From IMG/VR virus record IMGVR_UViG_3300030329_000925, positions 1 to 29,114 of that record: a stretch of DNA of 29,114 nucleotides; one strand, 5' to 3'. Made by a program: the position numbers and the translations under genes. Below are positions 1,573 through 26,885 of this stretch, one piece after another. A model generated the notes under the pieces. The model was not told where the DNA came from, did not search any database, and was given only the letters and a program-made list of their open reading frames with translations. Position 1 is the stretch's first letter; every line of letters starts with the position of its first letter. This stretch comes from a virus.

Positions 1573-1590
1573 TTTTCTATTATATAATAT
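1573..1590 (+). promoter_or_regulatory. Conserved pre-start element, copy 1 (putative phage promoter)
   Basis: TTTTCTATTATATAATAT lies directly before ATG 1591. The core TCTATTATATAAT recurs at 10901 and 14109, with a close variant at 26873, each 0-2 nt before an ATG. The inner ATTATATAAT is a perfect palindrome and contains TATAAT. This copy follows the terL terminator, so a promoter is needed here. Calling it a promoter is inference. Confidence 0.6.
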
Positions 1591-2259
1591 ATGAAAGTAA
1601 AAATTAAGCAGGATGGTGAAGTAAAGGAATTTAAATTAATTAGCAGTTGGTCAGATGTTACTCTAGAAACTTGGGCTAAACTAATTGGATTCCAAAAAGA
1701 AATAAAGACAAAAGAGGCGCTAGAAACTATAAAAGCATTGTCTACAATTCCAAGAAAGCTGATCAAAAAGCTGGAAATAAAAGATATTGCAATTATATTA
1801 GAAAGAATAAGTGATGCGCAAAAGGGAGCAGAAAGTTCTTTGAGAAAGATAATTGAAGTGGATGGGAAAGAGTATGGGTTTCATCCTGATTTAGACTCAA
1901 TTACTCTTGGTGAATATGCAGACATAGAAACGTTCATTAAGAATGGAGTTGATAAGAACATGGCTGAATTGATGGCGGTATTGTATAGACCGATTGTAGA
2001 AAAAAAGAATAATATTTATACCATTGAAGCATATGATGGTAATATAAGTATAAGGGCGGAAGAAATGAAGAAGATGAAAGCAGAGCAAGTGCAAGGAGCC
2101 TTGCGGTTTTTTTTTGCTTTAGGGAAAGAATTGCTAGAGATTTTGCCATTATTTTTAATGGAACGAATGAAGGAGATGGAGATGGAATTGCCTCCGAATC
2201 TTTTACAGAAAAGTGGTCGTGGTTCGGGGTTTTTTACAGGTTGTCGGGAGGGCAAATAG
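1591..2259 (+). CDS. Tail-assembly-chaperone-like protein (zero-frame product)
   Basis: A 222-aa protein, first gene after the terL terminator and the conserved pre-start element, so the first gene of the tail operon. The N-terminal pattern (LISSWSDVTLETWAKLIGF, residues 16-34) is one I associate with Bacteroidetes phage tail genes, but no domain name can be fixed by eye. Residues 155-200 are helical and charged. From about residue 200 on, the sequence looks less protein-like (serine/glycine rich). A -1 frame of 84 codons is open from a nine-T run at 2107-2115 to 2369, so this is probably the short partner of a frameshift pair like lambda G/GT. The role in tail assembly rests on that architecture and the neighbours. 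Confidence 0.7.
   Translation: MKVKIKQDGEVKEFKLISSWSDVTLETWAKLIGFQKEIKTKEALETIKALSTIPRKLIKKLEIKDIAIILERISDAQKGAESSLRKIIEVDGKEYGFHPDLDSITLGEYADIETFIKNGVDKNMAELMAVLYRPIVEKKNNIYTIEAYDGNISIRAEEMKKMKAEQVQGALRFFFALGKELLEILPLFLMERMKEMEMELPPNLLQKSGRGSGFFTGCREGK
2093..2115 (+). promoter_or_regulatory. Putative programmed -1 ribosomal frameshift signal
   Basis: AAGGAG at 2093-2098 lies 10 nt upstream of a perfect slippery heptamer T TTT TTT (2109-2115) in the zero frame, part of a run of nine T. This spacing is that of the Shine-Dalgarno stimulator of E. coli dnaX. A shift here gives 175 zero-frame residues plus 84 in the -1 frame. I see no convincing downstream stem. A homopolymer length error (true T10) would also join the frames. 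Confidence 0.5.
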
Positions 2260-2369
2260 TAAATTTAGATAAAATAACAAACCTTAACTTGTTAGAATGT
2301 TTAACGTGGTTAAGTTATGAAATGGATTTAAGTACACAAAATAAAGTAAAACATGGCGGTAAGCAATAA
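2115..2369 (+). CDS. Hidden -1 frame extension of the tail chaperone (GT-like part)
   Basis: This frame is open for 84 codons after the T-run and ends with TAA at 2367-2369, inside the next gene. It has no ATG before 2322, so it can hardly be translated alone and must be joined to the gene upstream. Its second half is strongly protein-like: a tryptophan-rich motif (FTEKWSWFGVFYRLSGG) followed by a helical stretch (LNLLECLTWLSYEMDL). I recall similar KWGWY-type motifs at this place in Bacteroidetes phages; that is memory, not a search. Joined product about 259 aa. The exact shift position is uncertain, since the zero frame also looks coding until about 2185. Confidence 0.55.
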   Translation, partial: CFRERIARDFAIIFNGTNEGDGDGIASESFTEKWSWFGVFYRLSGGQIVNLDKITNLNLLECLTWLSYEMDLSTQNKVKHGGKQ

Positions 2370-2901
2370 GACATATAACAACGTTACAAACACATTAATA
2401 AGGATTGGTCAGTATCATGATCAAATATCAACAGTATCAGTTGGTGATATATATGATATTAATTTAGAAAAGCTGGAGAAATTTGTGTTAATGCACATCA
2501 ACCCGCTTAATGTAGAAACAGGGGATAGTGAGTTAATATACAACTATCAGATTTTTATTTGTGATTTAGTTTCTGAGAAAAAAGATTGGCAAACCAAACA
2601 ACATGCTGATTTAACTAAGTTAGTAGATATGAAGAACAACGAACAAGAAGTGTTCAATCAAACATTAGAAATATGTACTGATATTATTGGTATGTTAAGA
2701 CATAGTGCAAGACAATCACTAGCAGGAACTAATGATATTAATAAACCTTTGTACTTTACAGAAGATCAGTTTACAATAGAGCCATTTACAGAAAGATTTG
2801 ATAATGCTCTATGTGGTTGGACGTTTCAAATAGGAATTAAAGTAATGAACGATTTTGATGCTTGTGTAATACCAGCAACAGATTCAGGAGCAGGGTACTA
2901 A
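2353..2901 (+). CDS. Putative tail terminator/completion protein
   Basis: A 182-aa soluble protein with no membrane segment. The first 17 nt overlap the -1 frame extension of the gene before, and the stop overlaps the next start (TAATG). The C-terminal part (EPFTERFDNALCGWTFQI, then a cysteine near the end) resembles a protein common in Bacteroidetes phage head-tail/tail clusters. The position, ahead of a gp10-like protein and the tail proteins, suits a tail terminator. The assignment is from context and weak pattern memory. Confidence 0.5.
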   Translation: MAVSNKTYNNVTNTLIRIGQYHDQISTVSVGDIYDINLEKLEKFVLMHINPLNVETGDSELIYNYQIFICDLVSEKKDWQTKQHADLTKLVDMKNNEQEVFNQTLEICTDIIGMLRHSARQSLAGTNDINKPLYFTEDQFTIEPFTERFDNALCGWTFQIGIKVMNDFDACVIPATDSGAGY

Positions 2902-2990
2902 TGTGGAAAAGATTAAAAAAAATAAACGTTATAAAAATAGGGAAAGTAGAAATACAAATAATCCCACCAACTATTAGAATAAGATTATAA
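2901..2990 (+). CDS. 29-aa basic microprotein
   Basis: ATG 2901 overlaps the previous TAA by one base, and its own TAA overlaps the next ATG at 2990 in the same way (TAATG on both sides). Perfect tiling between two genes argues for real translation. The peptide begins MWKRLKKINVIKIG and is rich in Lys, Arg and Ile with two adjacent prolines near the end. It may mainly serve to pass ribosomes to the next gene. No function known to me. Confidence 0.5.
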   Translation: MWKRLKKINVIKIGKVEIQIIPPTIRIRL

Positions 2991-3199
2991 TGGAAGAAAC
3001 TTTACGAATGGTTGAAAATTACGGATTGAGTGTAGTGCTTTTAATGGGCACATGTTACGCTTTGTATAAATTTTTCTTCTTTAGCATTAGAGAAGTGAAA
3101 GATACATTTTCAAAACATCATGAAACTAATGCAAAAAACATGGAAGATTTAAAAGAAAAAATAAATACAATATTAACACTATTAAACAATAAAAAATAA
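2990..3199 (+). CDS. Small membrane protein, holin-like architecture
   Basis: 69 aa: a short polar N-terminus, one hydrophobic segment (about residues 13-33, LSVVLLMGTCYALYKFFFF), then a charged amphipathic helix with a heptad feel ending in NNKK. This layout is like BhlA/UviB-type holin-like proteins. It lies among tail genes rather than in the lysis region, so it could also be a membrane-associated structural or DNA-delivery protein. Its start is coupled to the 29-aa gene before it. Confidence 0.55.
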   Translation: MEETLRMVENYGLSVVLLMGTCYALYKFFFFSIREVKDTFSKHHETNAKNMEDLKEKINTILTLLNNKK

Positions 3200-3202
3200 A
3201 TT

Positions 3203-3658
3203 ATGGCAGACTTAGTAACAACAATTTCAGACATTGTCACTTTAAATGGACAAAGTAGAGGTAGCACAAATAGTACAACGCAATCAGGTATTACTGATGT
3301 GTATGAAAGAATAGTTTTATGCGCACATTCTAATACTACAACTGTTGCGGTTTTTGATGCAAGCCCTCATGCTTCAGCAGGTAATGTTACAATTGACAGA
3401 GATCGAACTAAATATATTAGAGTGACAAATCTTAGCGAAACAGAAAATATAGAGGTTGCTTTTGTAGGTACAGCTACACTTTATCAAGTTAAGATAAGAC
3501 CAGGATATTCTCATGTATTAAGTGAAGGTGAAGAAATCTTACTAGCAGAAGGTGACACAAGTCCTAGTTTTGGAACAATGGAATCTCTTGCGAGTATACA
3601 AGTACAACCTGTTGGTTCAACAGATACTCAGATTGAAGTGTTCGTTGCTCTTGTATAA
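3203..3658 (+). CDS. Small virion protein, beta-rich (hypothetical)
   Basis: 151 aa rich in Thr, Ser and Val with alternating beta-strand patterns and no charge clusters, typical of a virion surface or decoration protein. It starts 3 nt after the previous stop, and its TAA shares a base with the following ATG. The segment TKYIRVTNLSETENIEVAFV looks like a strand-turn-strand jelly-roll element. Context (between a membrane protein and a gp10-like tail protein) supports a structural role. Specific function unknown. Confidence 0.5.
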   Translation: MADLVTTISDIVTLNGQSRGSTNSTTQSGITDVYERIVLCAHSNTTTVAVFDASPHASAGNVTIDRDRTKYIRVTNLSETENIEVAFVGTATLYQVKIRPGYSHVLSEGEEILLAEGDTSPSFGTMESLASIQVQPVGSTDTQIEVFVALV

Positions 3659-4194
3659 TGAAAACTAAAAATATAGAAAGATACTTGGAGAGCTTTGGTA
3701 GACAGGTAGTTAATCGAGCTAAAGGGAATATTCAAAAAGCAAAAGGAGGTGGTACTGCTTTGGAGAACTCTATATATTTTAAAATTAAAAACACTCCAAC
3801 AGGATATTCAGTAGATTTCTATATGGCAGATTATGGTCAGTATGTAGATAAAGGGGTTTCAGGAACAAAAGTAAGAAGGAGTTTTAAAAACTATAAAAGC
3901 AAGGTAATACCAAGCCCTTACAAATACACTAATAAGCAGCCTCCTAGCAGGGTGTTAGATAAGTGGATAGTAAAAAAAGGTATAGCACCTAGAGATGAAA
4001 AAGGTAGGTTTATGTCAAGAAAAAGCATTTCATTTTTAATTGCTAGAAGTATATTTAGAAAAGGGATACAAGGGATTAGCTTCTTTCAAAAACCTTTAGC
4101 ATTAGGATTAAAACAATTTGGAGATGAACTTTTAGGTGGTGTAAAGGAAGATATTATAAACGGATTAAAAACACAAAAAATAACAGTTAAATAA
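3658..4194 (+). CDS. HK97 gp10-like minor tail / tail-completion protein
   Basis: 178 aa, basic. The N-terminal helix (NIERYLESFGRQVVNRAKGNI) followed by a substrate-like YVDKGVSGTK loop (about residues 60-69) is the pattern of HK97-gp10/tail-completion proteins, where an initial helix leads into a small beta sheet. The C-terminal half is unusually long, with many Lys/Arg (GRFMSRKSISFLIARSIFRK). Coupled on both sides by 1-nt stop/start overlaps. Family-level call moderate. Confidence 0.55.
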   Translation: MKTKNIERYLESFGRQVVNRAKGNIQKAKGGGTALENSIYFKIKNTPTGYSVDFYMADYGQYVDKGVSGTKVRRSFKNYKSKVIPSPYKYTNKQPPSRVLDKWIVKKGIAPRDEKGRFMSRKSISFLIARSIFRKGIQGISFFQKPLALGLKQFGDELLGGVKEDIINGLKTQKITVK

Positions 4195-5708
4195 TGGCAA
4201 CAACAGTAATACAAGAACCTGCATTTGGACGGTCAACAACACCGCCAATGCCTGTCGGTCAAAAGATTTTATTCTCAGTAAAAAATAATTCTGTGGTTAA
4301 TAATAATTTTAATGTAAAATTTGTAGCAGAAGTTTATGTGCATACAACTGTAATAGCCCCAGGATCAGGAAGTACAGGTTTCAATGTAGAGCCAGCAGGA
4401 ACATTTAAAACAACTCCAAACAATGTAGGTGTTGGAATTTTTGATTTTCAGTCTGTATTAGAGTCTTTTGTTTCTTCAGATAGTGAACCTGGACGTGGAG
4501 ATATTACTGAAGGAATTTCTAAGTTTAAAAATTACGCATATAATTCATCAAGTTACCGTTTTCCTATTCATGTAATAGATAAGTTCTCACAAAGCAGAAA
4601 CGCAATACGTTATTTTGGTGTGAAGTTTTATATAGAAGGATCAAGCACTGCAACAGGATCAATCTCAGAAATTGTCAACACAACGGCTGGTATGTTTAGT
4701 TATGTCTTTTTTAATGGTGTTTTACAGCATGATAATCATTTAACATTAAAAGCTAACACATTTTCAGCTACCAGCGCCATGGGGTATGGTTATGATTTAA
4801 TTGCTAATAACTTGTGTATGTCCTCTGTTACAAACTATGGAAATCAAGGATTTTTATCAAATGCTCCAACTGTTCAATATGCTAACAAAACAGATTATGG
4901 AACTTTTTCATATATACAAGCATTACCTATTGCAACCACAAATATTGGTAATATAGTTTTTACATGGTATGATGCTTCAGGCTCGCAATTAGGAACTCTA
5001 AATTATTTCAGCAGCACCACAACAGGAGCAAGTACAGGAGCAGGAGGTACAGGAGCAGTTACATTTGCACCTGGTAAATTGCTTTATTTTGGAGGTTTTC
5101 CAGGAAATCTTAGAAATCATTCTTCTGCATTTGAAAGTGATATTGATGATATTTCTTATTATACAATTACTCCTGAACTATTTCAAAATGGTGTTAAATT
5201 GGTAAATCAAAAAACATATACAGTCTATATTAATTGTCCTGATCTAAGAGGTTATGAAAGTGTTAGATTAGGTTGGTTAAATCAATGGGGAACTTGGGAT
5301 TATTACACTTTTACAAAGAAATCAACTAGATCAACTACAACAAAACGAACAACATATACTCAAAGCACAGGTACTTGGAATGAAGAAACATTTGCAATAA
5401 ATGGATATAAGGGAGGACGTAAAAACTTTAGAGTAAATTCAACAGAAAGATTTCAGATAAATACTGATTTTTTAACTGAAGAAGAAGGAGCATGGATGGA
5501 AAATTTAATGAACAGCCCAGAGGTTTATATAATAAATGGATTTGATAGTTCAGAAGTTGCTCCTGCTGATGATATAACAAATAAATATGTAGAGCCTGTA
5601 TTGATAACAACATCTAACTATATTAGAAAAACCATAGCAAATGATAAGTTGATACAATACACTTTTGATATAGAAAGAAATAAAACACAAAGAACACAAA
5701 CAGTATAA
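4194..5708 (+). CDS. Tail structural protein (504 aa)
   Basis: Large, beta-rich, Thr/Ser/Gly-rich protein with a low-complexity loop near residues 275-290 (repeated TGA/GAGG units). The C-terminal 130 residues include NGYKGGRKNFRVNSTERFQI and a segment LTEEEGAWMENLMNSPEVYI, followed by DKLIQYTFDIE. That order recurs in tail/baseplate proteins of Bacteroidetes phages as I know them. It is coupled to genes before and after by 1-nt overlaps (TAATG). Probably part of the distal tail or baseplate; exact role not assigned. Confidence 0.6.
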   Translation: MATTVIQEPAFGRSTTPPMPVGQKILFSVKNNSVVNNNFNVKFVAEVYVHTTVIAPGSGSTGFNVEPAGTFKTTPNNVGVGIFDFQSVLESFVSSDSEPGRGDITEGISKFKNYAYNSSSYRFPIHVIDKFSQSRNAIRYFGVKFYIEGSSTATGSISEIVNTTAGMFSYVFFNGVLQHDNHLTLKANTFSATSAMGYGYDLIANNLCMSSVTNYGNQGFLSNAPTVQYANKTDYGTFSYIQALPIATTNIGNIVFTWYDASGSQLGTLNYFSSTTTGASTGAGGTGAVTFAPGKLLYFGGFPGNLRNHSSAFESDIDDISYYTITPELFQNGVKLVNQKTYTVYINCPDLRGYESVRLGWLNQWGTWDYYTFTKKSTRSTTTKRTTYTQSTGTWNEETFAINGYKGGRKNFRVNSTERFQINTDFLTEEEGAWMENLMNSPEVYIINGFDSSEVAPADDITNKYVEPVLITTSNYIRKTIANDKLIQYTFDIERNKTQRTQTV

Positions 5709-8485
5709 TGAGTGTACAATTAGCCATATTTCCGCAAACACATGCTAGTAACAGCCTTTTAGTAGATGGTCAAGAGTTTACAGGAGTTCCTGGAGCGTAT
5801 GAGATAAACACTGTTCAATCCAGTAATGTGACGACTGGTATTATAAGTATGACACCACCACCCATAACTCCAAACACATGGTATAAATTTAGATGGATTT
5901 TGAACAGTATGCCATCAGCTCCTGCTTCAGCTACATCATCAAATGGGTTATTAACTTTAAATTCAATAGTATCATCAGGACTAGGCACACGAGTGGGTAT
6001 TTATCAAAGGCTTTCAGGATTAACTCCAGGACAAGTCTACACTGCTACTGCTGAATATACTTCTGCTCCTGGATATTTGTTTTTCTTGCACACAAGTGCA
6101 TCAACTCCATTCACGCTACATGCTTATCAATCTATTGCAACAGATACAACTACTTCATTTACATGGGATTTTACAGCAGCAGCAACTGATGATGTGTTTT
6201 TTATACAATATCAAAATAACACTAATGCTAATTTGGTAATTTCTAAAGTAACTATAAATTCAAGTTCAGCACTTGGTTATACAGGTCAAGTTATTGCTGA
6301 TTTGTATGAAGATGAAGAAATACCACTAACATTAAGTGTAGATGATTTTAAAAGCATAGCAGAAAAGGTGCAGTCATATTCTAAAGATTTTAACCTACCA
6401 GCTACTAAAAGAAACAATAAGTTATTTAGCCACCTCTTAGATGTTACAAGAAGCATACAGCATCCGTATGAGTTTAACCCTTACATTAAAACTAGAGCAG
6501 TATTAAAGCAGGATGGAATCATTTTGTTTGATGGTATTCTTAAATTGATAAACATAGAAGATAGAGATGGTGAAGTAAGTTACAATGTGAATCTGTTTGC
6601 AGAAACAATTGCTTTAGCTGATACGTTAAAAAATAGAACTTTTGATTATATTGATTTTGGAGAATTAGCACATGAGTATAATATAGCAAATATTAAAAAT
6701 AGTTGGGATGATTCTGTTGGTTTGCCATTAGATGCTGCTCTTTCTACATCTAGCTTTGCTTATGATTCAAGTATTGGTGCTAACAATACAAATGTTTTAA
6801 AGTATCCTTTTGTAGATTGGACAGGTCAGATACTATATGCAAACGGATCAACAGGTTCATCTGCTACACTAGGAATGCCTGAGTTAACAAATTTAGAACA
6901 AGCGTTTAGGCCTTGGATAAAAATAAAATACTTAGTAGATCGAATATTTAGCGAGGCAGAATTTACCTATTCTTCAAACTTTTTTGATAGTTCAGATTTT
7001 GGTAAGTTATATATGGATTTCAATTGGGGTGGTGATAGAATGCCCGCCACACTAGATAAAAGTGTGTATAATTCTTCACAGGGGGCAGCTCCACAAGTTT
7101 TAGTTTCAACGAGTATTGAGCCTATTAAGTTTTATGCTCCTGGTACTTACGGAATAGCTACATCATCTGCATTACCGCCTGATTACAATACTTCAGGGGC
7201 AAATCAATATAGTATCGTTAGCACATCAGATAATCAGCTATACAATGTAGATTATAAAATCAGATTTAGACCTAATATCGGCTCTTCTGCTGATGGGTTT
7301 TTTGCTTGGCAGTATTATGATGCTTCAACAGGTACAACCACTAATATTGATGAACTTTATGAATACAATATACAATATTATTCCAATTGGAATTATGAAG
7401 GACAGTTTTATATAACATTAGACACAGGGGATAAGTTAACTCCTGTGCAACAAGATATAGGAACTAGCAATACGCTTAAAACATATCCTGGAGGAACAGC
7501 TATATTTACGGTGTCAACAGTTGAAGTTACATCTTCAATTTTAAACACATTAAGAGGGGAATTAAATCAATGGGAATTTATGAAAGGTATTTTCACCATG
7601 TTTAATTTGGTAACATTAAAAGATGAATCTGATCCTGGAAATATTATAATAGAACCATATAAAGATATATTTATAAAAACAGATAAAGGATTAACACTTA
7701 GTGATAGGGGCATTCAACATGATTGGACTGATAAAATAGATGAAAAAGATATTAAGCTAACCCCTTTAAATGATTTAAAAAAGAAAACCATATTTAAGTA
7801 TGCAGAAGATGATGCAGATTTTATCTTTGATATATATAAAAAATCTACTAGAGGTCATTTATACGGAAGTAAAGTTTTTGATGCTTCAGCTTTCACTGTA
7901 TTAGAAGGAGAAGAAGAAATAGTAGCAGAACCTTTTGCAGCTACTGTATCTAAACCATTATGGACAGCATTCCCTGAATTAATTGTTCCTACTATTTACA
8001 CAGCAGATAGTAATGGTGTAACAAGTGCATTTGATAATGCTCCAAGAATACTATACCAACTAACTGATGAAGCTGATACAATGGGAACTACGAGTTATTA
8101 TATACCTGCTCAAAATGGAGAATCAGCAGAACAGTCTTTTAAAAGGTTCACATTTGCGCATTTAACAACAATACCTACTGTTGTGAGTACGCCTCCTGTT
8201 CCAGCAGATACATCAGACTTTAATTTTGGTGAATGTCAGTTAATACAGCCAATAGGTCAAGCAGTGCCTAATAACTTATTTAACACATATTGGTTCCCTT
8301 ATTACAATCAGCTTTATAATCCTGATACTAAAATGATGGAAATAAAAGTAAACTTGCAGCCAGGTGATATTGCAGCATTTAAATTCTCAGATCATGTGAT
8401 GATCAAGAACAGATCATACAGAGTAAATAGAATTGATTACAAGCCAAAAGATTTATCAACAGTTGAATTTATATTAATACCATAA
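5708..8485 (+). CDS. Large tail/baseplate protein with N-terminal carbohydrate-binding-like insert
   Basis: 925 aa, the largest protein of the phage. After a short lead, residues about 50-195 form a beta-sandwich-like stretch resembling a carbohydrate-binding module (many alternating aromatic/Thr strands, ending in NLVISKVTINSSS). From about 200 a tail-type domain begins (DLYEDEEIPLTLSVDDF, then SKDFNLPATKRNN and GIILFDGILKLINIEDRDGEV), which I associate with Bacteroidetes phage tail tips. The last 60 residues (MMEIKVNLQPGDIAAFKF, then RSYRVNRIDYKP) look like a barrel-type closing domain. Likely tail-tip hub or receptor-contacting protein. The insert suggests glycan recognition; that part is inference. 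Confidence 0.6.
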   Translation: MSVQLAIFPQTHASNSLLVDGQEFTGVPGAYEINTVQSSNVTTGIISMTPPPITPNTWYKFRWILNSMPSAPASATSSNGLLTLNSIVSSGLGTRVGIYQRLSGLTPGQVYTATAEYTSAPGYLFFLHTSASTPFTLHAYQSIATDTTTSFTWDFTAAATDDVFFIQYQNNTNANLVISKVTINSSSALGYTGQVIADLYEDEEIPLTLSVDDFKSIAEKVQSYSKDFNLPATKRNNKLFSHLLDVTRSIQHPYEFNPYIKTRAVLKQDGIILFDGILKLINIEDRDGEVSYNVNLFAETIALADTLKNRTFDYIDFGELAHEYNIANIKNSWDDSVGLPLDAALSTSSFAYDSSIGANNTNVLKYPFVDWTGQILYANGSTGSSATLGMPELTNLEQAFRPWIKIKYLVDRIFSEAEFTYSSNFFDSSDFGKLYMDFNWGGDRMPATLDKSVYNSSQGAAPQVLVSTSIEPIKFYAPGTYGIATSSALPPDYNTSGANQYSIVSTSDNQLYNVDYKIRFRPNIGSSADGFFAWQYYDASTGTTTNIDELYEYNIQYYSNWNYEGQFYITLDTGDKLTPVQQDIGTSNTLKTYPGGTAIFTVSTVEVTSSILNTLRGELNQWEFMKGIFTMFNLVTLKDESDPGNIIIEPYKDIFIKTDKGLTLSDRGIQHDWTDKIDEKDIKLTPLNDLKKKTIFKYAEDDADFIFDIYKKSTRGHLYGSKVFDASAFTVLEGEEEIVAEPFAATVSKPLWTAFPELIVPTIYTADSNGVTSAFDNAPRILYQLTDEADTMGTTSYYIPAQNGESAEQSFKRFTFAHLTTIPTVVSTPPVPADTSDFNFGECQLIQPIGQAVPNNLFNTYWFPYYNQLYNPDTKMMEIKVNLQPGDIAAFKFSDHVMIKNRSYRVNRIDYKPKDLSTVEFILIP

Positions 8486-10877: not shown

Positions 10878-10900
10878 AAATCAAATAAATATTAATTTAA

Positions 10901-10913
10901 TCTATTATATAAT
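10901..10913 (+). promoter_or_regulatory. Conserved pre-start element, copy 2 (putative phage promoter)
   Basis: TCTATTATATAAT is immediately followed by ATG 10914, at the switch from tail to head genes. It is identical to the core of copies 1 and 3, but 2 nt closer to the ATG. No terminator lies before it, so it would be an internal start within a read-through operon. Confidence 0.55.
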
Positions 10914-11639
10914 ATGCCTTGCGAAAAATGTGAAAACGGAAAATATAAATGGGGAAAGACAGGAGCTTGTGAGTATGATACAAAAGCTGAATGTGAAGAA
11001 GCCAATAAAGATTATTATAAAAATCTAAAAACCACTTCTATCAAAGAATTGGTTATTGCAGATGATTCAGAAGAATTGGCAATTGACGCTATTAGTTTAG
11101 TTTCTGCTCCTGCAATAGAGCAAGACTTTGTTTATTTCGGTAAAGAGAAAAACAACTTAACGTTTGCTAAAGTAGATGAAGATAAAAGAATGATCGTTAG
11201 TCCTGCTTTAATCCCTAACAAGCAAATATTCAGATATGATCCAAATACTGATTCAGAGTATTACGTATATTTTAGCCCTGATACAGTTAGAAAGGCTTCT
11301 GAGCTTTATTTAAAACATAACAATCACCACAAAGCAACTTATGAACACCAAGATAGAGTTTCAGGTGTTTTAACAGTTGAATCTTGGATTAAAGAGGGCG
11401 ATATGGATAAATCTAAATTATATGGCTATGACCTACCAAATGGTACGTGGTTCGTTAAAATGAAAATAAATAATGATGAACTATGGTCTAAGGTGAAGGA
11501 TGGCTCTTTAAAAGGGTTAAGTATTGAGGGCTACTTTACGGACAAGATGGAAAAGATGGCAGAAAGAGAAGCAACAACAGAGGAAATACTTAAAGCTCTT
11601 AATGAGATAATAAGCGAAAATCAAACAAAATCAAAATAA
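10914..11639 (+). CDS. XkdF-like prohead protease
   Basis: 241 aa. The core from about residue 45 fits the XkdF-type prohead protease pattern: AISLVSAPAIEQDFVYF, SPALIPNKQIFRYD, VYFSPDTVRKASELYL, then THEH-type YEHQDRVSGVLTVESWI and GTWFVKMKINNDELW with LKGLSIEGYF at the end. His (YEHQ) and Ser (LSIEGYF) are the expected catalytic-type residues. A cysteine-rich lead (CEKCENGKYKWGKTGAC, residues 3-19) precedes the protease domain and may bind metal. It matures the capsid shell together with the scaffold gene that follows. Confidence in the family is good; the catalytic triad was judged by eye. Confidence 0.8.
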   Translation: MPCEKCENGKYKWGKTGACEYDTKAECEEANKDYYKNLKTTSIKELVIADDSEELAIDAISLVSAPAIEQDFVYFGKEKNNLTFAKVDEDKRMIVSPALIPNKQIFRYDPNTDSEYYVYFSPDTVRKASELYLKHNNHHKATYEHQDRVSGVLTVESWIKEGDMDKSKLYGYDLPNGTWFVKMKINNDELWSKVKDGSLKGLSIEGYFTDKMEKMAEREATTEEILKALNEIISENQTKSK

Positions 11640-11663
11640 ATCTATTTAATTAAAAAAGAACCT

Positions 11664-12410
11664 ATGGACTTAAAAGAAAAAATATTAGTAGCTCTTGGTC
11701 TTAGCAAAGATGAAGAAGTGAAATTGGCTTGGCAGGCAAAAAGTGAGGATGGTACTATCTTTGTTTCTACTGCTGAAGAATTAGAATCAGGTGTTGATAT
11801 TTCTGTTTTAACAGAAGACGGCACGACAATACCTTTACCAATCGGAACATATAAGACCGATACAGGCGTTAGCTTCAGAGTAGAAGAAGAAGGCGTTGTT
11901 GGTGAAGTGATCGAATCTGAAACTGAAGAAGCTGACACGGTTGAAGAAGAAGAAATGTCAGAAGAAGTTAAAGAAGAAGAATTAGCTAAAGAGGATGAAG
12001 ATGATTATGATGAAGAAAGTAGAGCAGAAGAAACTGATTGGGCTAAAACTTATGAAGAAATGAAGGAAAAAGTTGAAAACCTAGAAGACGCAATTGCAGA
12101 TATAAAAGCAAGATTAGGTGAAGGAGATTCAGAAGAAGTAGAAATGACAGAAGAAACTACTGAAGAAGTATCTGATACTCCAAAAACAGTTACTACTAAA
12201 ACAACTGAAGTAGTTGAATTTTCAGCAGAAGAAGAAGTAGAAAAATTAAAAGCTGAAAACGAAAAACTTAAAACTGAATTAGCTTCAAGCCCTGCTGATT
12301 CACCAATAAACATTAATAAATTTAGCTCAGAAAGACCTACATTATCTAGAAAAGATTATGGTAAACTTTCTAAGCATGAGAAATTTTTATACAACTTAAA
12401 TAAATTATAA
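11664..12410 (+). CDS. Acidic scaffold-like protein
   Basis: 248 aa, extremely acidic. Residues 1-80 form a small beta domain (KSEDGTIFVSTAEELESG, then TEDGTTIPLPIGTY). Residues 80-150 are a Glu/Asp-rich stretch with a predicted coiled coil (YEEMKEKVENLEDAIADIKARL). A second coiled coil (EVEKLKAENEKLKTEL) comes near 195, and the C-terminus is basic (TLSRKDYGKLSKHEKFLY), the part expected to touch the capsid protein. Placement between protease and major capsid is the classic scaffold position. Confidence 0.7.
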   Translation: MDLKEKILVALGLSKDEEVKLAWQAKSEDGTIFVSTAEELESGVDISVLTEDGTTIPLPIGTYKTDTGVSFRVEEEGVVGEVIESETEEADTVEEEEMSEEVKEEELAKEDEDDYDEESRAEETDWAKTYEEMKEKVENLEDAIADIKARLGEGDSEEVEMTEETTEEVSDTPKTVTTKTTEVVEFSAEEEVEKLKAENEKLKTELASSPADSPININKFSSERPTLSRKDYGKLSKHEKFLYNLNKL

Positions 12411-14020: not shown

Positions 14021-14054
14021 TCTACTTAGTTTTTTCATATATATTTCAGATTAG

Positions 14055-14080
14055 GGTGGCTTTATTGCCACCTTTTTCTT
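14055..14080 (+). terminator. Strong intrinsic terminator after the major tail protein
   Basis: GGTGGC and GCCACC form a perfect 6-bp GC-rich stem around TTTATT, followed by CTTTTTCTTTT-like T-rich sequence (TTTTT at 73-77 of the 14000 line, then CTTTT). It lies 35 nt after the stop at 14020 and 23 nt before the third copy of the conserved pre-start element, so one transcript ends and a new one begins here. Confidence 0.85.
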
Positions 14081-14102
14081 TTATAAGCAAATAAAAACAG
14101 GG

Positions 14103-14121
14103 TTTTTCTATTATATAATAT
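14103..14121 (+). promoter_or_regulatory. Conserved pre-start element, copy 3 (putative phage promoter)
   Basis: TTTTTCTATTATATAATAT directly precedes ATG 14122. It matches copy 1 over 18 consecutive bases up to and including the spacing to the ATG, though the flanks are unrelated. A strong terminator ends just upstream, which makes a promoter function here the simplest reading. Confidence 0.62.
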
Positions 14122-14601
14122 ATGATACAAGCAACAACTAAAACAGATTTAACTTTTTATTTGCAAACTGAAGATAATAGAATTGATACTTCTGTTGATT
14201 CAAGCAAGATAAGGCATTTAGTGAAGTTCACTAATGATATGGATAAATCAGTTCAGTATGCTTATTCATCAGTGCATTTAATATATGAAAGATACACAAA
14301 ATTTGTGTTTACATATAATGCAACTCCTGATGTTTATACAGGTGATATTGATTTGTTACCTGCTGGATATTGGAAATATGAAGTGTTTGAAGTTAGCTGG
14401 ACAGGTGCAGTAGCAATTAGCTCTGGTAATGCTCCTGTAACAGAAGATGATGTATTACCTGTGGGACCCACTCATGGTGTTGTGCAGGGATTAGTAACAA
14501 AAGGAAAAATGTATGTTGCTGAAAAAGATGGAACGCAACAAGTGACATATACACAAAGAGAAGAACCAAGTGGAACGAATTATATATATTACGGACAATA
14601 A
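14122..14601 (+). CDS. Virion-associated hypothetical protein (159 aa)
   Basis: First gene of the operon that follows the strong terminator. 159 aa, beta-rich, with no membrane segment. A central stretch (YTGDIDLLPAGYWKYEVFEVSW, here residues about 73-94) looks like the edge of a fibronectin- or Ig-like sandwich. The C-terminus ends in a Thr/Gln/Tyr-rich tail (TNYIYYGQ). Similar small proteins occur between tail tube and portal genes in Bacteroidetes phages as I recall them. Structural role likely, exact function unknown. Confidence 0.5.
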   Translation: MIQATTKTDLTFYLQTEDNRIDTSVDSSKIRHLVKFTNDMDKSVQYAYSSVHLIYERYTKFVFTYNATPDVYTGDIDLLPAGYWKYEVFEVSWTGAVAISSGNAPVTEDDVLPVGPTHGVVQGLVTKGKMYVAEKDGTQQVTYTQREEPSGTNYIYYGQ

Positions 14602-20121: not shown

Positions 20122-20137
20122 AATTTTTATATCTTTG
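20106..20137 (+). promoter_or_regulatory. Early promoter of Bacteroidetes type
   Basis: TTTG at 20106-20109 and TATCTTTG at 20130-20137, spaced by 20 nt, match the known Bacteroidetes primary-sigma consensus (-33 TTTG, -7 TAnnTTTG). It stands in the largest gene-free stretch (20021-20165) upstream of the early gene cluster. Transcription would start near 20143, about 20 nt before ATG 20166. Confidence 0.75.
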
Positions 20138-21782: not shown

Positions 21783-21959
21783 ATGGAAAAGTATAGAGTA
21801 AGAAACAAAAAAAGAATAAACTATAATGGAGGGTTTACAATAACAAAATCATGGTTTGAGTGTGGAATACATAAATGCAAAGCAGTAAATGATTTAAATG
21901 AAGAATATACATTTAACATTAGAGATTTAGAAGAAATTAAAACAAAGTCAAATAAATAA
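21783..21959 (+). CDS. 58-aa hypothetical protein
   Basis: ATG 21783, 2 nt after the gene before; TAA 21957-21959. The 58-aa protein is basic at the N-terminus (KYRVRNKKRINYN) with a later beta hairpin pattern and two cysteines (WFECGIHKCKAV), then an acidic tail. It fits a small single-domain protein. Within the early operon just ahead of SSB. Function unknown. Confidence 0.5.
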   Translation: MEKYRVRNKKRINYNGGFTITKSWFECGIHKCKAVNDLNEEYTFNIRDLEEIKTKSNK

Positions 21960-21970
21960 AAAACAAAAAA

Positions 21971-22288: not shown

Positions 22289-22290
22289 TC

Positions 22291-22800
22291 ATGACAGAAG
22301 AATTGAATTTTAAAGAAATCTGCAATTTAACGACTAGGACTCTTGGAATGCCCGAAGGTGCGCTATCATTAAAAAGCAGAAAAAGACCATTACAGATAGC
22401 TAGATCAGTTGCAGCATATATTGGTCTAACTGAAGAAAACATACACAGAACTGTTATTGCTAAAGAGTTAAATCGTGATAGGAGTTTAATGTATCATTAT
22501 GAAAATAAACATAAACATATTTATAGAAGTTGTGAAAAATATCGTAATACTTTTAATAAAGTTTATAAGGTTTATAAAGATATAGATAATGAAAAAGAGA
22601 TATTTATTAGAGGTGATCACATGAAAAGACATCTTTTGAAAAGCGGTGTTAGTGAGGTTAAAAACCCTGATGTGTTTATTGAAGTTAAAAGCGGTGAAGC
22701 TAGATGCACTTTAAATACTTCATACTTTAAATTTTCAGAACAATTAGAAATTGTTAAGTTTGCAATGGAAAAATATCATTACACAATAAAACTTATATAA
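22291..22800 (+). CDS. DnaA C-terminal-domain-like DNA-binding protein
   Basis: 169 aa. Residues 25-75 (LSLKSRKRPLQIARSVAAYI then AKELNRDRSLMYHYENKHKH) follow the pattern of DnaA domain IV: a basic loop SRKRPLQIAR, an amphipathic helix, and a second helix where the RDRSLMYHY segment corresponds to the family's RDHTTVLHA signature. No AAA+ domain. The rest is helical and basic with no known motif. It probably binds DnaA-box-like or phage-origin sites. It directly precedes the winged-helix initiator (shared base of TAATG). Confidence 0.7.
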   Translation: MTEELNFKEICNLTTRTLGMPEGALSLKSRKRPLQIARSVAAYIGLTEENIHRTVIAKELNRDRSLMYHYENKHKHIYRSCEKYRNTFNKVYKVYKDIDNEKEIFIRGDHMKRHLLKSGVSEVKNPDVFIEVKSGEARCTLNTSYFKFSEQLEIVKFAMEKYHYTIKLI

Positions 22801-23402
22801 TGCAAAAACCTAATTATTACGCGGTTATTCCTGCTGAAGTAAGATACAGCAAAAAGCTAACACCTAATGCTAAACTTCTTTATGCAGAAATAACTGCTTT
22901 GTGTAATATGAATGGGAAATGTACAGCATCCACACAATACTTTTGTAAGTTATATGAAGTAAGTAGATCATCTATTCAAAATTGGTTAAAACTTTTAGAA
23001 GATAATAAGTATATTGTTAGAGATGTAAAATATAAACAAGGTAGTAGAGAAATTGAGTCTAGGTCAATCAGATTGGTGGACAATCCTATGCTAAAAATAT
23101 CAACAGATAATACTAATATAAATATAACTAATACTAATCTTACAGATGGTAATAAGAAGAAGCGTTTTAAAAAACCAACTTTAGATGAAGTTAAAGATTA
23201 TTGTATATTGCGAAAAAATAATATAGATGCTGAAGCATTTATTGATTTTTATGAAAGCAAGGGGTGGAAAATAGGAAAAGAAATAATGAAGGATTGGAAG
23301 GCAGCAGTTAGAAATTGGGAAAGAAGAAATAAAGAAAAAGTAACAATGTCCAAGCTAGATTCACAAATAAATGCTTGGCAAGAAGCAAAAAAACTATTAT
23401 GA
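22800..23402 (+). CDS. Winged-helix replication initiation protein (O-like)
   Basis: 200 aa. The N-terminal part (NYYAVIPAEVRYSKKLTPNA, LLYAEITALCN, and helix-turn-helix YEVSRSSIQNWLKLLEDNKY, about 49-68) is the winged-helix domain of phage replisome organizers like lambda O. A polar linker rich in Asn/Thr (about 100-118) leads to a C-terminal domain (FKKPTLDEVKDYCILRK then GWKIGKEIMKDWKAAVRNWERR), typical of such proteins. It would bind origin DNA and recruit helicase. Neighbours: DnaA-like upstream, putative loader downstream. Confidence 0.78.
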   Translation: MQKPNYYAVIPAEVRYSKKLTPNAKLLYAEITALCNMNGKCTASTQYFCKLYEVSRSSIQNWLKLLEDNKYIVRDVKYKQGSREIESRSIRLVDNPMLKISTDNTNINITNTNLTDGNKKKRFKKPTLDEVKDYCILRKNNIDAEAFIDFYESKGWKIGKEIMKDWKAAVRNWERRNKEKVTMSKLDSQINAWQEAKKLL

Positions 23403-23578
23403 CAGAAAAAGAATTTTATAATTTATTGTTAGATGAACTAAATGAAATGCAAGATTACGCGTTATGTCCTATGGATATATTGGATACTGTTGAAGATTAT
23501 ATAGAACATCACATAGATAAAGAGATTAATAAAAGATTAGATGAATTAGATGATACAATAAAAAGCATAAAATTATGA
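23399..23578 (+). CDS. 59-aa acidic hypothetical protein
   Basis: ATG 23399 overlaps TGA of the initiator gene by ATGA; a further upstream TTG at 23375 would extend it, but the ATGA junction is the better start. 59 aa, very acidic, helical (TEKEFYNLLLDELNEMQDYA, EDYIEHHIDKEINKRLDEL). Its stop is also in an ATGA overlap with the next gene. Probably a small partner in the replication operon; unknown. Confidence 0.5.
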   Translation: MTEKEFYNLLLDELNEMQDYALCPMDILDTVEDYIEHHIDKEINKRLDELDDTIKSIKL

Positions 23579-23946
23579 AACCACTTAAACAAGAAAATTT
23601 ACAAGAACTATCAGAAAAGGTTTTAGACCTTTTAGCTAAGACCTCTGTTGAGATAGGACACAACACCGATCCTCAAACTATGGCTAGTCTTAGCAAGATA
23701 TTTGCACAAGATTTAATTAATGAAAAAAGATTTGGAAATATGACATTCAACCAAGTGCAGGATGCTTTTCATCAAGGCGTTCGTTTTGGTAAAGATGAAC
23801 CATTTTTAAATATTAGAACATTTTATAAATGGGTATATGCCCACAAAAAAGTAATCGACAATGCATGGTATGAAGTGAAGACATTAGGGAAAGACCCTAA
23901 GAAAGTATTATTTTATCAAGAACCTTTAAAAAAACTATTAAAATGA
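23575..23946 (+). CDS. Replication-operon protein, candidate helicase loader
   Basis: 123 aa, helical. The motif FNQVQDAFHQGVRFGKDEPF (about 60-79) followed by LNIRTFYKWVYAHKKVI is one I know from Bacteroidetes phage replication clusters, where it follows the initiator. It has no Walker A and so is not a DnaC-type ATPase; a lambda P-like or adaptor loader is possible. Joined to neighbours on both sides by ATGA overlaps. Confidence 0.5.
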   Translation: MKPLKQENLQELSEKVLDLLAKTSVEIGHNTDPQTMASLSKIFAQDLINEKRFGNMTFNQVQDAFHQGVRFGKDEPFLNIRTFYKWVYAHKKVIDNAWYEVKTLGKDPKKVLFYQEPLKKLLK

Positions 23947-24017
23947 AAACATCAATCGTAGGCTGGGTATTTTTTACCGCAATTGTAATGTGGTTAATAA
24001 GAAGAATCAGAGAATAA
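23943..24017 (+). CDS. 24-aa membrane microprotein
   Basis: ATG 23943 overlaps the previous TGA (ATGA); TAA 24015-24017. The 24-aa peptide (MKTSIVGWVFFTAIVMWLIR...) is one hydrophobic helix with a basic end RRIRE. Stop/start overlap and the positive-inside tail suggest a real small membrane protein, like those at 19940 and 18337. It precedes another AACTAAAATG leader. Confidence 0.4.
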   Translation: MKTSIVGWVFFTAIVMWLIRRIRE

Positions 24018-24032
24018 CTAAAATTAACTAAA

Positions 24033-24350
24033 ATGAAAGATAAAACAAAAGATATAGTAAAAGAACTATTAATTAATAAGCCTCATTTAAGAGATAGTGA
24101 TCCAAAACTTATAGCTACTTATTGGTATAATGAATTGAAAAAGAAACAAATAAATCCTTATAAACTAAGTGGTTATGAATTTATGCAGTTATTTGCTAAC
24201 AGTAAATTAACCAATATAAAAACCATTGAAAGAATGCGTAGAAAATTACAGGAAGAACATCCAGAATTAAGGGGTAAGATATACAGTATGCGCAAAGGAG
24301 CTATTCAAGATGATTGGAAAAGAGAACTTGGATATGAAGTCAATAAGTAA
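24033..24350 (+). CDS. Basic hypothetical protein, possible HTH regulator
   Basis: 105 aa, basic. The order KLIATYWYNELKKKQINPYK then FMQLFANSKLTNIKTIERMRRKLQEEHPELRG is a pattern I have met in phage proteins of the replication/early region; the segment SKLTNIKTIERMRRKLQ may be a recognition helix. Leader AACTAAAATG. Its end overlaps the NinG-like gene. DNA binding is a guess from charge and pattern. Confidence 0.5.
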   Translation: MKDKTKDIVKELLINKPHLRDSDPKLIATYWYNELKKKQINPYKLSGYEFMQLFANSKLTNIKTIERMRRKLQEEHPELRGKIYSMRKGAIQDDWKRELGYEVNK

Positions 24351-24738
24351 GCTCAAAAAAGAATTAGATAAATGGTTTAGCCTTTACATAAGGCTTAAAG
24401 ATGCAACAGATGAAGGGTTAGTACAGTGCATAACTTCAGGCAGGGTGTATCACTACAAAAAAATTCATGCAGGACATTTTATGTCAAGAAGACATTTAGC
24501 AACAAGATGGTGTGAGATTAATGTTGCACCACAATCAGCAGCAGATAATTTATTTGGTCAAGGAGAACAGTACAAATTTGGATTAGCTTTAGATCAAAAA
24601 CATGGTGAAGGTACAGCAGAACAAATGCAACTCAAAGCAAGAACAACAATTAAAATGTCTAGAATTGATTATGAAGATAAAATAAGTTATTACAAATCGG
24701 CTGTTGAAAACTTAAAAAAAGAAAAAGGCATTGAGTAA
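24334..24738 (+). CDS. ninG: NinG/Rap-like recombination nuclease
   Basis: 134 aa from ATG 24334 (142 aa if ATG 24310 is used). The pattern KLKKELDKWFSLYIRLKDAT then GRVYHYKKIHAGHFMSRRHL, RWCEINVAPQS and NLFGQGEQYKFGLAL matches NinG, the lambda protein Rap that acts on recombination intermediates with an HNH-like fold. The AGHF motif and following basic residues would hold the active site. Most NinG proteins have CxxC and QCxxCN zinc cysteines; here these positions read QCITSGR and PQSAADN, so the structural zinc site appears to be lost. The overlap with the gene before suggests coupling. Confidence 0.72.
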   Translation: MKSISKLKKELDKWFSLYIRLKDATDEGLVQCITSGRVYHYKKIHAGHFMSRRHLATRWCEINVAPQSAADNLFGQGEQYKFGLALDQKHGEGTAEQMQLKARTTIKMSRIDYEDKISYYKSAVENLKKEKGIE

Positions 24739-24748
24739 ACTTTTCTGT

Positions 24749-24756
24749 TAAATTTG
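24749..24756 (+). promoter_or_regulatory. Weak Bacteroidetes -7 element before ATG 24761
   Basis: TAAATTTG matches TAnnTTTG; the best upstream TTG (24731-24733) is only 15 nt away. ATG 24761 starts 4 nt after the element, so a transcript would be nearly leaderless. It could give the sigma-like operon its own start. Confidence 0.3.
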
Positions 24757-24760
24757 GCAT

Positions 24761-25117
24761 ATGACAAAGCCAATATATTCAAGCCATGAACATCAGTCAA
24801 TAGTTGATATTTATGTTAGAATGTGTTTAGAGTTTGCAGAAGAAGTAAGTTCCAAAGCAAAATACGAAAATTATTTAGATGTTGTCAATGTAATATTTGA
24901 ATACAGCAATGGATACGGAAAGGGGGTTAGAGAAAATAATTTTTATGATTGGATTATGATCATACCTATTAACTTATCAGTTGCAACAAATGGGTTTTTT
25001 GCAGCGTTAGAAACAAAAAAGAATGCAGCAGTTATAAGAGCTTATAAAGTGGTATTACAAGAAATGTTACATCAAACAGTTGATAAACTAGATTTAATTA
25101 ATCCAGAAAATGAATAA
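24761..25117 (+). CDS. 118-aa hypothetical protein
   Basis: 118 aa, helical and soluble; opening SSHEHQSIVDIYVRMCLEFA, centre NGYGKGVRENNFYDWIMIIP, then an Ala-rich helix (NGFFAALETKKNAAVI). No motif I can name. It is the first gene of the operon that encodes the sigma-like protein and overlaps it by 8 nt, so it might regulate or assist it (for example as an anti-sigma or co-activator); that is speculation. Confidence 0.45.
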   Translation: MTKPIYSSHEHQSIVDIYVRMCLEFAEEVSSKAKYENYLDVVNVIFEYSNGYGKGVRENNFYDWIMIIPINLSVATNGFFAALETKKNAAVIRAYKVVLQEMLHQTVDKLDLINPENE

Positions 25118-25682
25118 GATATATCTGGAAATATCAAAGCTAACAGATAAATTTAGAACAATGGCTTATGGTATTACAACAGATGAAAACAAAATCCATG
25201 AAGCCGTACAGGAGTTGATGTTATATTTTCTGCAAATGAATCCCAAAACTTTACAAGATATATGGGAAAAAGATGGTGAAAAAGGTATTGTATGTTATGG
25301 AGCAGTTGCATTAAGAAGGGCATTAACCAGCACTAGAAGTAATTTTTATTATAAATATGAAAAGTATTACACACATATTGATAGCGCTAGTTACAATTGC
25401 AGTACAACTTTTAGTAATGATAATGTGGCATATAATGTTGCTAATAACAAACATATACATAATATTGCGGAAAAAGAAGTGAACAAGCAATGGGAAAAGC
25501 TAGAGCAAATAGATAAAGTGTTAGATGATATCCATTGGTACGATAGGGAGTTGTTTAAGCTATATTATTATGAGGGGAACACATTAGATAGTCTTGCTGC
25601 AAAAACTAAGATAAGCAGAAATAGTTTATTCACTACAATAGATAAGGTAAGGGAAATATTAAAAAAAGAATTAAATGAATAA
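25110..25682 (+). CDS. Sigma-factor-like protein (sigma-70 family, region-4-type HTH)
   Basis: 190 aa. The C-terminal 50 residues (HWYDRELFKLYYYEGNTLDS, then LAAKTKISRNSLFTTIDKVR) form a region-4-like helix-turn-helix: a first helix, the YYEGNTLDSLAAKT turn, and a recognition helix SRNSLFTTI. The N-terminal part (AYGITTDENKIHEAVQELML) has the helical pattern of a region-2-type domain with a basic/aromatic stretch (FYYKYEKYY). Size and layout fit a phage-encoded ECF-like sigma factor, which could direct host RNA polymerase to phage late promoters. Alternative: a DNA-binding regulator without sigma function. Confidence 0.65.
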   Translation: MNKIYLEISKLTDKFRTMAYGITTDENKIHEAVQELMLYFLQMNPKTLQDIWEKDGEKGIVCYGAVALRRALTSTRSNFYYKYEKYYTHIDSASYNCSTTFSNDNVAYNVANNKHIHNIAEKEVNKQWEKLEQIDKVLDDIHWYDRELFKLYYYEGNTLDSLAAKTKISRNSLFTTIDKVREILKKELNE

Positions 25683-26076
25683 ATTTTTTGTTCCTAATGA
25701 TGTGTATGAAGATAGAATATCTATATGCAGGGAATGTATTTATTATTTTAAGCCGACAGGAACATGTAAGGACTGTGGTTGTTTCATGAAAATCAAAGCC
25801 AGGCTCGCCCCAATGGAATGCAGTCAAAGGAAGTGGCAGAAAACAACTAAGATAGAAACACCTGATGATTTACCACAAGAGATAATAGATGAAATATTAG
25901 ATATGTGGAAAGATTTAAAAACAGGTAAAGCTAAAAACATAGAAGCAAAAAAACGAATGATTGAAACATATAATACGATATTTATGACTAGTTACAGCCC
26001 AAGAACAAATTGTGGCTCATGCCTATCAACATGCTTTGATGGAATAAAAAAATTATATAAAAAATATACACAATGA
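25675..26076 (+). CDS. Zinc-binding phage protein with two cysteine modules
   Basis: 133 aa. An N-terminal zinc module has cysteines at 18, 21, 31, 34, 36 and 49 (CRECIYYFKPTGTCKDCGCF...C). A helical middle (LPQEIIDEILDMWKDLKTGK) leads to a second module NCGSCLSTCFDGIKKLY at the end. Both modules are common in T4-like and other lytic phages but not of known function. Overlaps the sigma-like gene by 8 nt (ATGAATAA junction), so it may belong to the same regulatory unit. Confidence 0.6.
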   Translation: MNKFFVPNDVYEDRISICRECIYYFKPTGTCKDCGCFMKIKARLAPMECSQRKWQKTTKIETPDDLPQEIIDEILDMWKDLKTGKAKNIEAKKRMIETYNTIFMTSYSPRTNCGSCLSTCFDGIKKLYKKYTQ

Positions 26077-26333
26077 AAAAAAAGGAAGAAATACCACATT
26101 ACTACATAGGTAAAAAGCATAAAATTGAAGCAAGAAAAGTTGTAGAAGATTTTCAAGGTGATAACTATAATTTAGGCACAGCCATTACTTATTTACTAAG
26201 GGCAGGCAAAAAAGAAGGAAACCCAATTGAACAAGATATACGCAAAGCAATAAACCATTTACACTTTGAGTTGGATCGTATTTTTAAAGATAGTGATATA
26301 AAAACAGGAGGTTTAGATAGAACAGGATTATAA
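26073..26333 (+). CDS. DUF3310 protein
   Basis: 86 aa. The pattern HYYIGKKHKIEARKVVEDFQ, NLGTAITYLLRAGKKEGN, and EQDIRKAINHLHFELDRI is that of DUF3310, a small phage protein often next to nucleotide-metabolism or replication genes. Some members are called nucleotide kinases on weak grounds; no P-loop is visible here. Overlaps the gene before by 4 nt and the next by 1 nt. Confidence 0.75.
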   Translation: MKKKEEIPHYYIGKKHKIEARKVVEDFQGDNYNLGTAITYLLRAGKKEGNPIEQDIRKAINHLHFELDRIFKDSDIKTGGLDRTGL

Positions 26334-26584
26334 TGGCATTATATAAATGTAAATGTGGAGAACACCAAAAAGAAATACACAAGCAAGTGATTGTTTTTCG
26401 TGATGGTGCTTGGGTTACTAAAGGATCAGAATGCCCATGTGGAAAGTTTATGGAAAGTGAACCTGAAGAAGGAATGCCAACTATAAAGAGAACAGAACCT
26501 TCTTTAAGCAAAAAGAGAGATATGCTTTGGGATAGCGCAAGAGAAAAGTTAATTGGTGAAAGAGGTATTAACGAAGATTTTTAA
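26333..26584 (+). CDS. Small zinc-ribbon protein
   Basis: 83 aa. Two CxC pairs (KCKCGEH at 5-11 and ECPCGKFM at 33-40) would make a zinc ribbon. The rest is polar with a basic helix (SLSKKRDMLWDSAREKL). Coupled to DUF3310 by TAATG. Possibly a DNA- or RNA-contacting protein; function unknown. Confidence 0.55.
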   Translation: MALYKCKCGEHQKEIHKQVIVFRDGAWVTKGSECPCGKFMESEPEEGMPTIKRTEPSLSKKRDMLWDSAREKLIGERGINEDF

Positions 26585-26586
26585 AA

Positions 26587-26856
26587 ATGAAAAATTATAT
26601 ATTATTATTGATGATATTATTGTTTAGTTGTGCTAAAAATAATTATACACCACTTAATAATGAAGTAAATACAGAAGCGTGTTTAGATACGTGCGGTATT
26701 ATTATTTATGTAAAACATTATATGAATGATTACCCAGAAATTTGCTCAGAATTAACAATAAAAACTTCGTGTGACACTTTAGATATAATAAGTATTCACA
26801 CACTAGCAGAAATTACTTACCATTCAGGGGATAGTGTTTGTTTTGCTAGAGAATAA
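26587..26856 (+). CDS. Predicted lipoprotein (89 aa)
   Basis: 89 aa with a classic lipoprotein signal: MKNYILLLMILLFSC, lipobox cysteine at residue 15. The mature part has five further cysteines (30, 34, 52, 60 and 84 or so) and an acidic, hydroxylated surface. The product should reach the outer or inner membrane. Phage lipoproteins of this size often block superinfection (for example T5 Llp) or assist lysis as spanin lipoproteins; here the position, away from the lysis genes and next to ParB, favours a superinfection or conversion role, but this is only inference. Confidence 0.6.
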   Translation: MKNYILLLMILLFSCAKNNYTPLNNEVNTEACLDTCGIIIYVKHYMNDYPEICSELTIKTSCDTLDIISIHTLAEITYHSGDSVCFARE

Positions 26857-26870
26857 ATAAATAACAAAAA

Positions 26871-26885
26871 TTTCTATTATATATT
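26871..26885 (+). promoter_or_regulatory. Conserved pre-start element, copy 4 (variant)
   Basis: TTTCTATTATATATT directly precedes ATG 26886. It agrees with the other copies through TTTCTATTATATA and then has TT for AT. It lies 29 nt after the lipoprotein stop, at the start of the ParB-glycosyltransferase-terminase operon. Confidence 0.52.

Follow-up and report, generated by a model that had tools for sequence, protein, structure and literature searches.

What is the short element that recurs directly before start codons in the DNA of an uncultured marine phage, and what reads it? The stretch analysed here (the window) comprises 29,114 nucleotides (nt) of IMG/VR virus record IMGVR_UViG_3300030329_000925. 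An earlier note on this sequence described four near-identical copies of a palindromic element before ATG codons at gene-block boundaries and suggested a phage-specific promoter. Our analysis suggests that the element quite probably serves this phage lineage as a late promoter, which host RNA polymerase would read together with a phage sigma factor resembling the extracytoplasmic function (ECF) type (gene 25110-25682), from which leaderless or nearly leaderless mRNAs would be produced.

The element and its conservation

The core of the element, TCTATTATATAAT, occurs exactly on the plus strand at 1576-1588, 10901-10913 and 14107-14119 and with a single mismatch at 26873-26885, followed by an ATG after 2, 0, 2 and 0 nt, respectively. 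All four copies of the earlier note, and its spacing of 0-2 nt to the ATG, were thereby recovered, but the repeat proved to be longer and more numerous than described. An upstream AAAyNAA block at a fixed distance from the core belongs to it, giving a repeat of 33 nt; the bipartite motif reads yAAAyNAA-N11-TCTATTATATA, with fixed spacing. When the window was scanned with a position weight matrix built from the relatives described below, the four copies scored 33-38 bits (best of 20 shuffles, 11.9 bits) and a fifth, more diverged copy was detected at 11622-11653 (19.1 bits), before the gene at 11664; nothing in the window beyond these five exceeded 1.4 bits. The count of expected occurrences that had been proposed as a check gave about 0.01 exact 13-mers under Markov models of order 1-3, against three observed. 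A chance origin of the element is excluded.

The five copies are as follows.

26854-26885, plus strand: putative late promoter 1, of the ParB/glycosyltransferase/TerS/TerL operon; TAAATAAA at 26854-26861, N11, TCTATTATATATT at 26873-26885; ATG at 26886, 0 nt away
1557-1588, plus strand: putative late promoter 2, of gene 1591 and the tail block after it; AAACTAAA at 1557-1564, N11, TCTATTATATAAT at 1576-1588; ATG at 1591, 2 nt away
10882-10913, plus strand: putative late promoter 3, of the head maturation protease and the head genes after it; CAAATAAA at 10882-10889, N11, TCTATTATATAAT at 10901-10913; ATG at 10914, 0 nt away
11622-11653, plus strand: putative late promoter 3b, the fifth copy; CAAACAAA at 11622-11629, N11, TCTATTTAATTAA at 11641-11653; ATG at 11664
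14088-14119, plus strand: putative late promoter 4, of gene 14122 to the portal and the genes after it; CAAATAAA at 14088-14095, N11, TCTATTATATAAT at 14107-14119; ATG at 14122, 2 nt away

Related marine viral contigs were fetched through TerL, the portal and the sigma-like protein (80 each), and orthologous starts of the window genes were located in 239 loci. The element, scored with at most two mismatches within 60 nt of the start, was kept before 102/111 starts of the 1591 family, 21/24 of the 10914 family, 23/23 of the 11664 family, 51/52 of the 14122 family, 45/50 of ParB and 49/103 of TerS, and almost nowhere outside these families. Where TerS rather than ParB is the first gene, the element is still present, and the 11664 gene has its own copy, 10-29 nt from the ATG. 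Only these six gene families have the bipartite motif upstream, on the coding strand: it stands before 269 of their 358 starts, compared with 9 of 2,288 other starts. The gap between the two blocks is 11 nt (326 forward, 16 reverse) or, in a minority, 12 nt (115 forward, 23 reverse), with all other gaps at background. Within the TerL loci, all 47 occurrences of the exact core were on the coding strand, and a reversed control gave no match. Among the 116 IMG/VR contigs listed for the exact 17-mer, 90 belong to this phage family, and 90 of the 91 copies in those 90 contigs precede an ATG.

The same element thus stands before several structural and packaging operons, on the coding strand only and almost nowhere else, which is the pattern of a phage late promoter class. 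Whether the element stays before the same gene blocks in relatives had been posed as a test; it was passed strongly, and the conservation supports a phage-specific, promoter-type element at the boundaries of late units. A search of the cultured relatives 11b, phi10:1 and P12024S gave no convincing copy.

Intrinsic terminators had also been described before copies 1 and 3 (of the original four, in order of position). The one before copy 3 was confirmed by its predicted fold; the hairpin before copy 1 (1576) was not better than shuffles (z +0.5).

14053-14074, plus strand: intrinsic terminator between late unit 3 and promoter 4; fold of -17.5 kcal/mol for 14021-14090, z -4.5

An RNA hairpin as the function of the element itself was rejected, since no fold at copies 1, 2 and 4 beat shuffles.

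A candidate reader of the element

Late in the window lies a gene whose product is proposed to read the element.

25110-25682, plus strand: predicted phage sigma factor, proposed reader of the element; 190 residues with a sigma2, disordered linker and sigma4 layout

The AlphaFold model of this protein consists of a helical N-terminal domain, a disordered segment at residues 76-123 and a helical, helix-turn-helix C-terminal domain. This predicted structure has the layout of the ECF (group 4) sigma factors, which contain only sigma2 and sigma4, joined by a linker, in about 160-200 residues. When the whole model was compared with the PDB, sigma factors ranked at the top, and the VIA-align matches listed were sigma factors. 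In this comparison, sigma4 of Escherichia coli sigmaE aligned over 68 residues (3.1 Å, Z 10.1). The N-terminal domain, predicted alone, matched region 2 of ECF sigma factors, with Mycobacterium tuberculosis sigma L aligning over 71 residues (2.4 Å, Z 9.1); here the top 17 rows were sigma factors and unrelated folds reached Z values of 4.5 or less. Family matches were weak. Sigma70_r4 matched 25 of 36 relatives, at best with 0.0026, and Sigma70_r4_2 matched 18 of 36, at best with 2e-4; phrog_36, a regulator, gave 7.8e-6, and phrog_1740, a sigma factor, up to 7e-5 among relatives. The first 52 residues of gp33 of Nonlabens phage P12024S, annotated as sigma-70 region 2 (Sigma70_r2), align with the N-terminal domain over 52 columns (E 2e-4). 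Among annotated phage records, no sequence relatives of the sigma were found.

The element and the sigma-like gene were both present in 35 of 35 near-complete relatives. Twenty of these had been reached through the portal or TerL rather than through the sigma or the element, and all 20 carry both. Thus, selection by sigma or element does not explain the co-occurrence. P12024S has a related portal and the sigma-region-2 protein, yet no convincing copy of the element.

Under the proposed mechanism, the -33-like block yAAAyNAA, an 11-nt A/T-rich spacer and the -10-like block TCTATTATATA would form the promoter. Early, host polymerase would transcribe from TAnnTTTG promoters, among them the predicted leaderless promoter of the sigma operon. 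Later, that core enzyme would be guided by the phage sigma to yAAAyNAA-N11-TCTATTATATA upstream of the units for packaging, tail, head and portal, turning on the five late units that begin at 26886, 1591, 10914, 11664 and 14122.

Several observations weigh against this assignment. The sigma identity of the protein rests on predicted folds: a sequence search of solved structures gave no sigma match, the Sigma70_r4 scores of the window protein fall under the Pfam gathering cut-off, and Foldseek returned E-values above 1 for the N-terminal domain alone. All relatives are of one lineage, so the co-occurrence of sigma and element does not reflect independent evolution. No co-variation between sigma and motif was found in the relatives; motif variants differ promoter by promoter within one genome, and there is therefore nothing to correlate with the sigma. 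Finally, translation of leaderless mRNAs in the host is assumed, and Flavobacterium johnsoniae mostly uses leaders (PMC6847099).

In an alternative that we consider unlikely, a phage activator other than the sigma-like protein helps host polymerase, carrying a host sigma, to read the promoter; the sigma-like protein would then have another site of action or serve to remodel a sigma factor. Several other conserved phage genes encode DNA-binding domains (22291, DnaA_C-like; 22800, HTH_36), and the connection between the sigma gene and the element is indirect. However, the element lacks the host TTTG/TAnnTTTG signature and has two invariant blocks of its own, and the 25110-25682 protein has both the sigma2 and the sigma4 predicted folds. 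The phage sigma remains our preferred reader.

Predicted start sites and leaders

The earlier note had considered the palindrome and its TATAAT as the functional part of the element. Orthologs that seemed to lack the element carry the variants TCTATATATA, TCTATTTAAT and TCTATTTCAT, across which TCTAT, the T's before it and the upstream A-block persist, while the palindrome and the last two bases of the element do not. The relatives do not support that view. TATAAT as a -10 box was rejected as well, because its positions vary and the RNA start would fall inside genes that need their first residues. The ParB domain begins at residue 3, which excludes an RNA start inside the ParB gene; its ATG must therefore be within the mRNA, and the -10 has to be TATTAT or TCTAT. 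No alternative upstream ATG, GTG or TTG was found for the genes at 1591, 10914, 14122 and 26886.

Across 211 distinct sites, the distance from the end of the element to the ATG was 0 nt in 110, 1 nt in 8, 2 nt in 37, 3 nt in 12, 4-9 nt in 3 and at least 10 nt in 41, the longer leaders coming mainly from the 11664 and 14122 families. Every one of about 20 distinct longer leaders begins with A or G at element position 14. This position coincides with the A of the start codon where the spacing is 0 nt, and it is a purine in all 37 sites at which the ATG follows after 2 nt. Since position 14 is a purine in every longer leader, transcription probably starts there, about 6 nt downstream of TATTAT. 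The simplest reading of position 14 as +1 gives leaders of either 0-3 nt or at least about 10 nt. In most units, RNA would begin on the first base of the start codon or 1-3 nt ahead of it. In 167 of 211 sites, 6-9 positions separate the end of TATTAT from the A of the ATG, placing the predicted +1 on or next to the start codon as in leaderless genes, and the earlier suggestion of leaderless or nearly leaderless mRNAs gains support as a predicted geometry. For late promoter 3b, a 10-nt leader, AAAAGAACCU, is predicted, and a leader of the same 10 nt, AAAAGAACCT, occurs in relatives.

The closeness of element and ATG (0-3 nt in these 167 sites) would also suit a translation signal, that is, a start-codon context for Bacteroidetes-type ribosomes that do without Shine-Dalgarno pairing. 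We regard this as very improbable. The same element stands 10-29 nt away in 41 sites, a distance that a promoter allows and a start-codon signal does not; its partner block 30 nt upstream is equally fixed; and about 2,280 other starts in these genomes lack it. The known Bacteroidetes context, A at -3 and -6 (PMC6847099), is unlike the element. Least probable of the readings weighed here is a palindromic operator or ParB (parS-like) site, which was rejected although three copies contain ATTATATAAT as a perfect palindrome and one copy of the element lies before a ParB-domain gene: the inverted symmetry is lost in relatives while TCTAT and the A-block persist, the element is strictly directional (47 vs 0 by strand), and ParB is present in only 13 of 35 near-complete relatives against 35 of 35 for the element.

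A late promoter read by the phage sigma would sit beside host-type promoters that the Bacteroidetes sigmaA recognizes by a TTTG / TAnnTTTG signature (PMC6847099). The TAnnTTTG -7 box was found before the sigma operon, at a leaderless distance, and before some early genes, as the earlier note had supposed for the latter; it is not part of the late elements. Within 60 nt of late starts, it occurred only in the 1591 family (14 of 111 starts, 50-52 nt before them).

24749-24756, plus strand: -7 element of host (Bacteroidetes) type, TAAATTTG; the ATG of gene 24761, the first of the sigma operon, follows after 4 nt; predicted to be read by the host and to give a leaderless mRNA
24761-25117, plus strand: small gene overlapping the start of the sigma gene, same operon; no clear family match
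20130-20137, plus strand: host-type -7 element TATCTTTG, in a non-coding stretch before early genes

Of 127 relatives, 112 have the box before the ATG of the 24761 family, 75 of them at a distance of 4 nt and 37 at 3 nt; one further relative has it at 5 nt. In F. johnsoniae, transcription begins 4-5 nt after the -7 box, and 87% of mapped leaders are longer than 10 nt (PMC6847099). With the box 3-4 nt from the ATG, the sigma operon mRNA is therefore predicted to be leaderless too, independently of the geometry of the late element. Starts of the 20356 family have a TAnnTTTG box within 60 nt, mostly at 25-29 nt, in 24 of 31 cases among relatives.

We tentatively propose that the lineage starts its operons leaderless by design, a notion about which we are more doubtful than confident: a host-type promoter for the sigma operon would be followed by phage-sigma promoters whose start site coincides with the start codon, and host ribosomes might shift towards leaderless initiation late in infection. 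Similar TAnnTTTG-N3-5-ATG arrangements were seen in the cultured phages 11b, phi10:1 and P12024S, and leaderless starts may be common in flavophages.

Known systems and genome context

Phage sigma factors that switch on late or middle genes include T4 gp55, with its TATAAATA late promoters, and SPO1 gp28 and gp34; T4 late promoters lack a -35 element. Like these factors, the small sigma proposed here would redirect host polymerase to a short A/T-rich element before structural-gene operons. Unlike theirs, the proposed promoter in the window includes an upstream block that is conserved and fixed in its spacing, and sigma2 and sigma4 are both present in the predicted sigma. T4-type late promoters have only the -10 octamer TATAAATA, whereas here AAAyNAA is conserved upstream and the core is TCTATTATATA.

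Leaderless late operon heads, as proposed here, would recall Thermus phage phiYS40, most of whose middle and late transcripts have no leader (reviewed in PMC3594737). In contrast to the Thermus system, the hosts here are apparently Flavobacteriia, in which the majority of transcripts carry a leader (PMC6847099), and the proposed reader is a phage sigma. A survey of sigma70-like boxes in bacterial genomes placed TA-like signals about 12 nt before the start of leaderless genes (PMC3160421). The -10-like box of the element similarly begins about 11-13 nt before the ATG, but it is a distinct, phage-specific box rather than a sigma70-like one. Open-licence papers gave no description of this promoter class or of a sigma combined with leaderless mRNAs in a Bacteroidetes-type phage. 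Phage sigmas and leaderless phage mRNAs are known separately; their combination in such a phage looks new.

If correct, this reading would describe the late-gene switch of an uncultured marine phage lineage from sequence alone, with a named promoter, a sigma and an exact predicted start. It would also offer a naturally occurring example of programmed leaderless translation in a Bacteroidetes-type system, whose ribosomes do not rely on Shine-Dalgarno pairing and in which most host genes carry leaders. The specificity of the motif suffices to flag late operons and members of the lineage in metagenomes.

The last 717 nt of the window (28398-29114) repeat the first 717 (1-717) with 92% identity. 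The record therefore probably represents one turn of a genome of about 28.4 kb that is circularly permuted, plus the overlap, assembled from a mixture of strains. All assigned genes are on the plus strand, in the order TerL, tail genes with the tape measure, head maturation protease, probable capsid genes and portal, followed by a metallophosphoesterase, early and replication genes, the ParB-domain gene, a glycosyltransferase and TerS. Even the closest cultured phages are only distantly related: Flavobacterium phage 11b and Cellulophaga phi10:1 for TerL (53%) and Nonlabens P12024S for the portal (32%). The hosts appear to be Flavobacteriia, judging only from these distant cultured relatives, which are phages of Flavobacterium, Cellulophaga and Nonlabens, and from the TAnnTTTG boxes. 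The sole relative in the genome collection is a close 29-kb contig (L362, PBGL02000003.1) within a marine Euryarchaeota metagenome-assembled genome. It is probably a misbinned viral contig, and the host can therefore not be read from that assembly.

The ParB-domain gene (26886-27500), which heads the packaging operon, is variable, being present in the 13 near-complete relatives counted above; in relatives without it, the promoter abuts TerS or another gene. One 31.6-kb relative (G005, IMGVR_UViG_3300030450_000412, L037/L084/L281) has two distinct ParB genes, with 100% and 65% identity to that of the window, and a partial second sigma match near its ends; it is perhaps a chimeric or over-closed assembly. 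The glycosyltransferase (27490-28230), between ParB and TerS, matches phrog_842 (beta-glucosyl-HMC-alpha-glucosyltransferase) at 6e-17.

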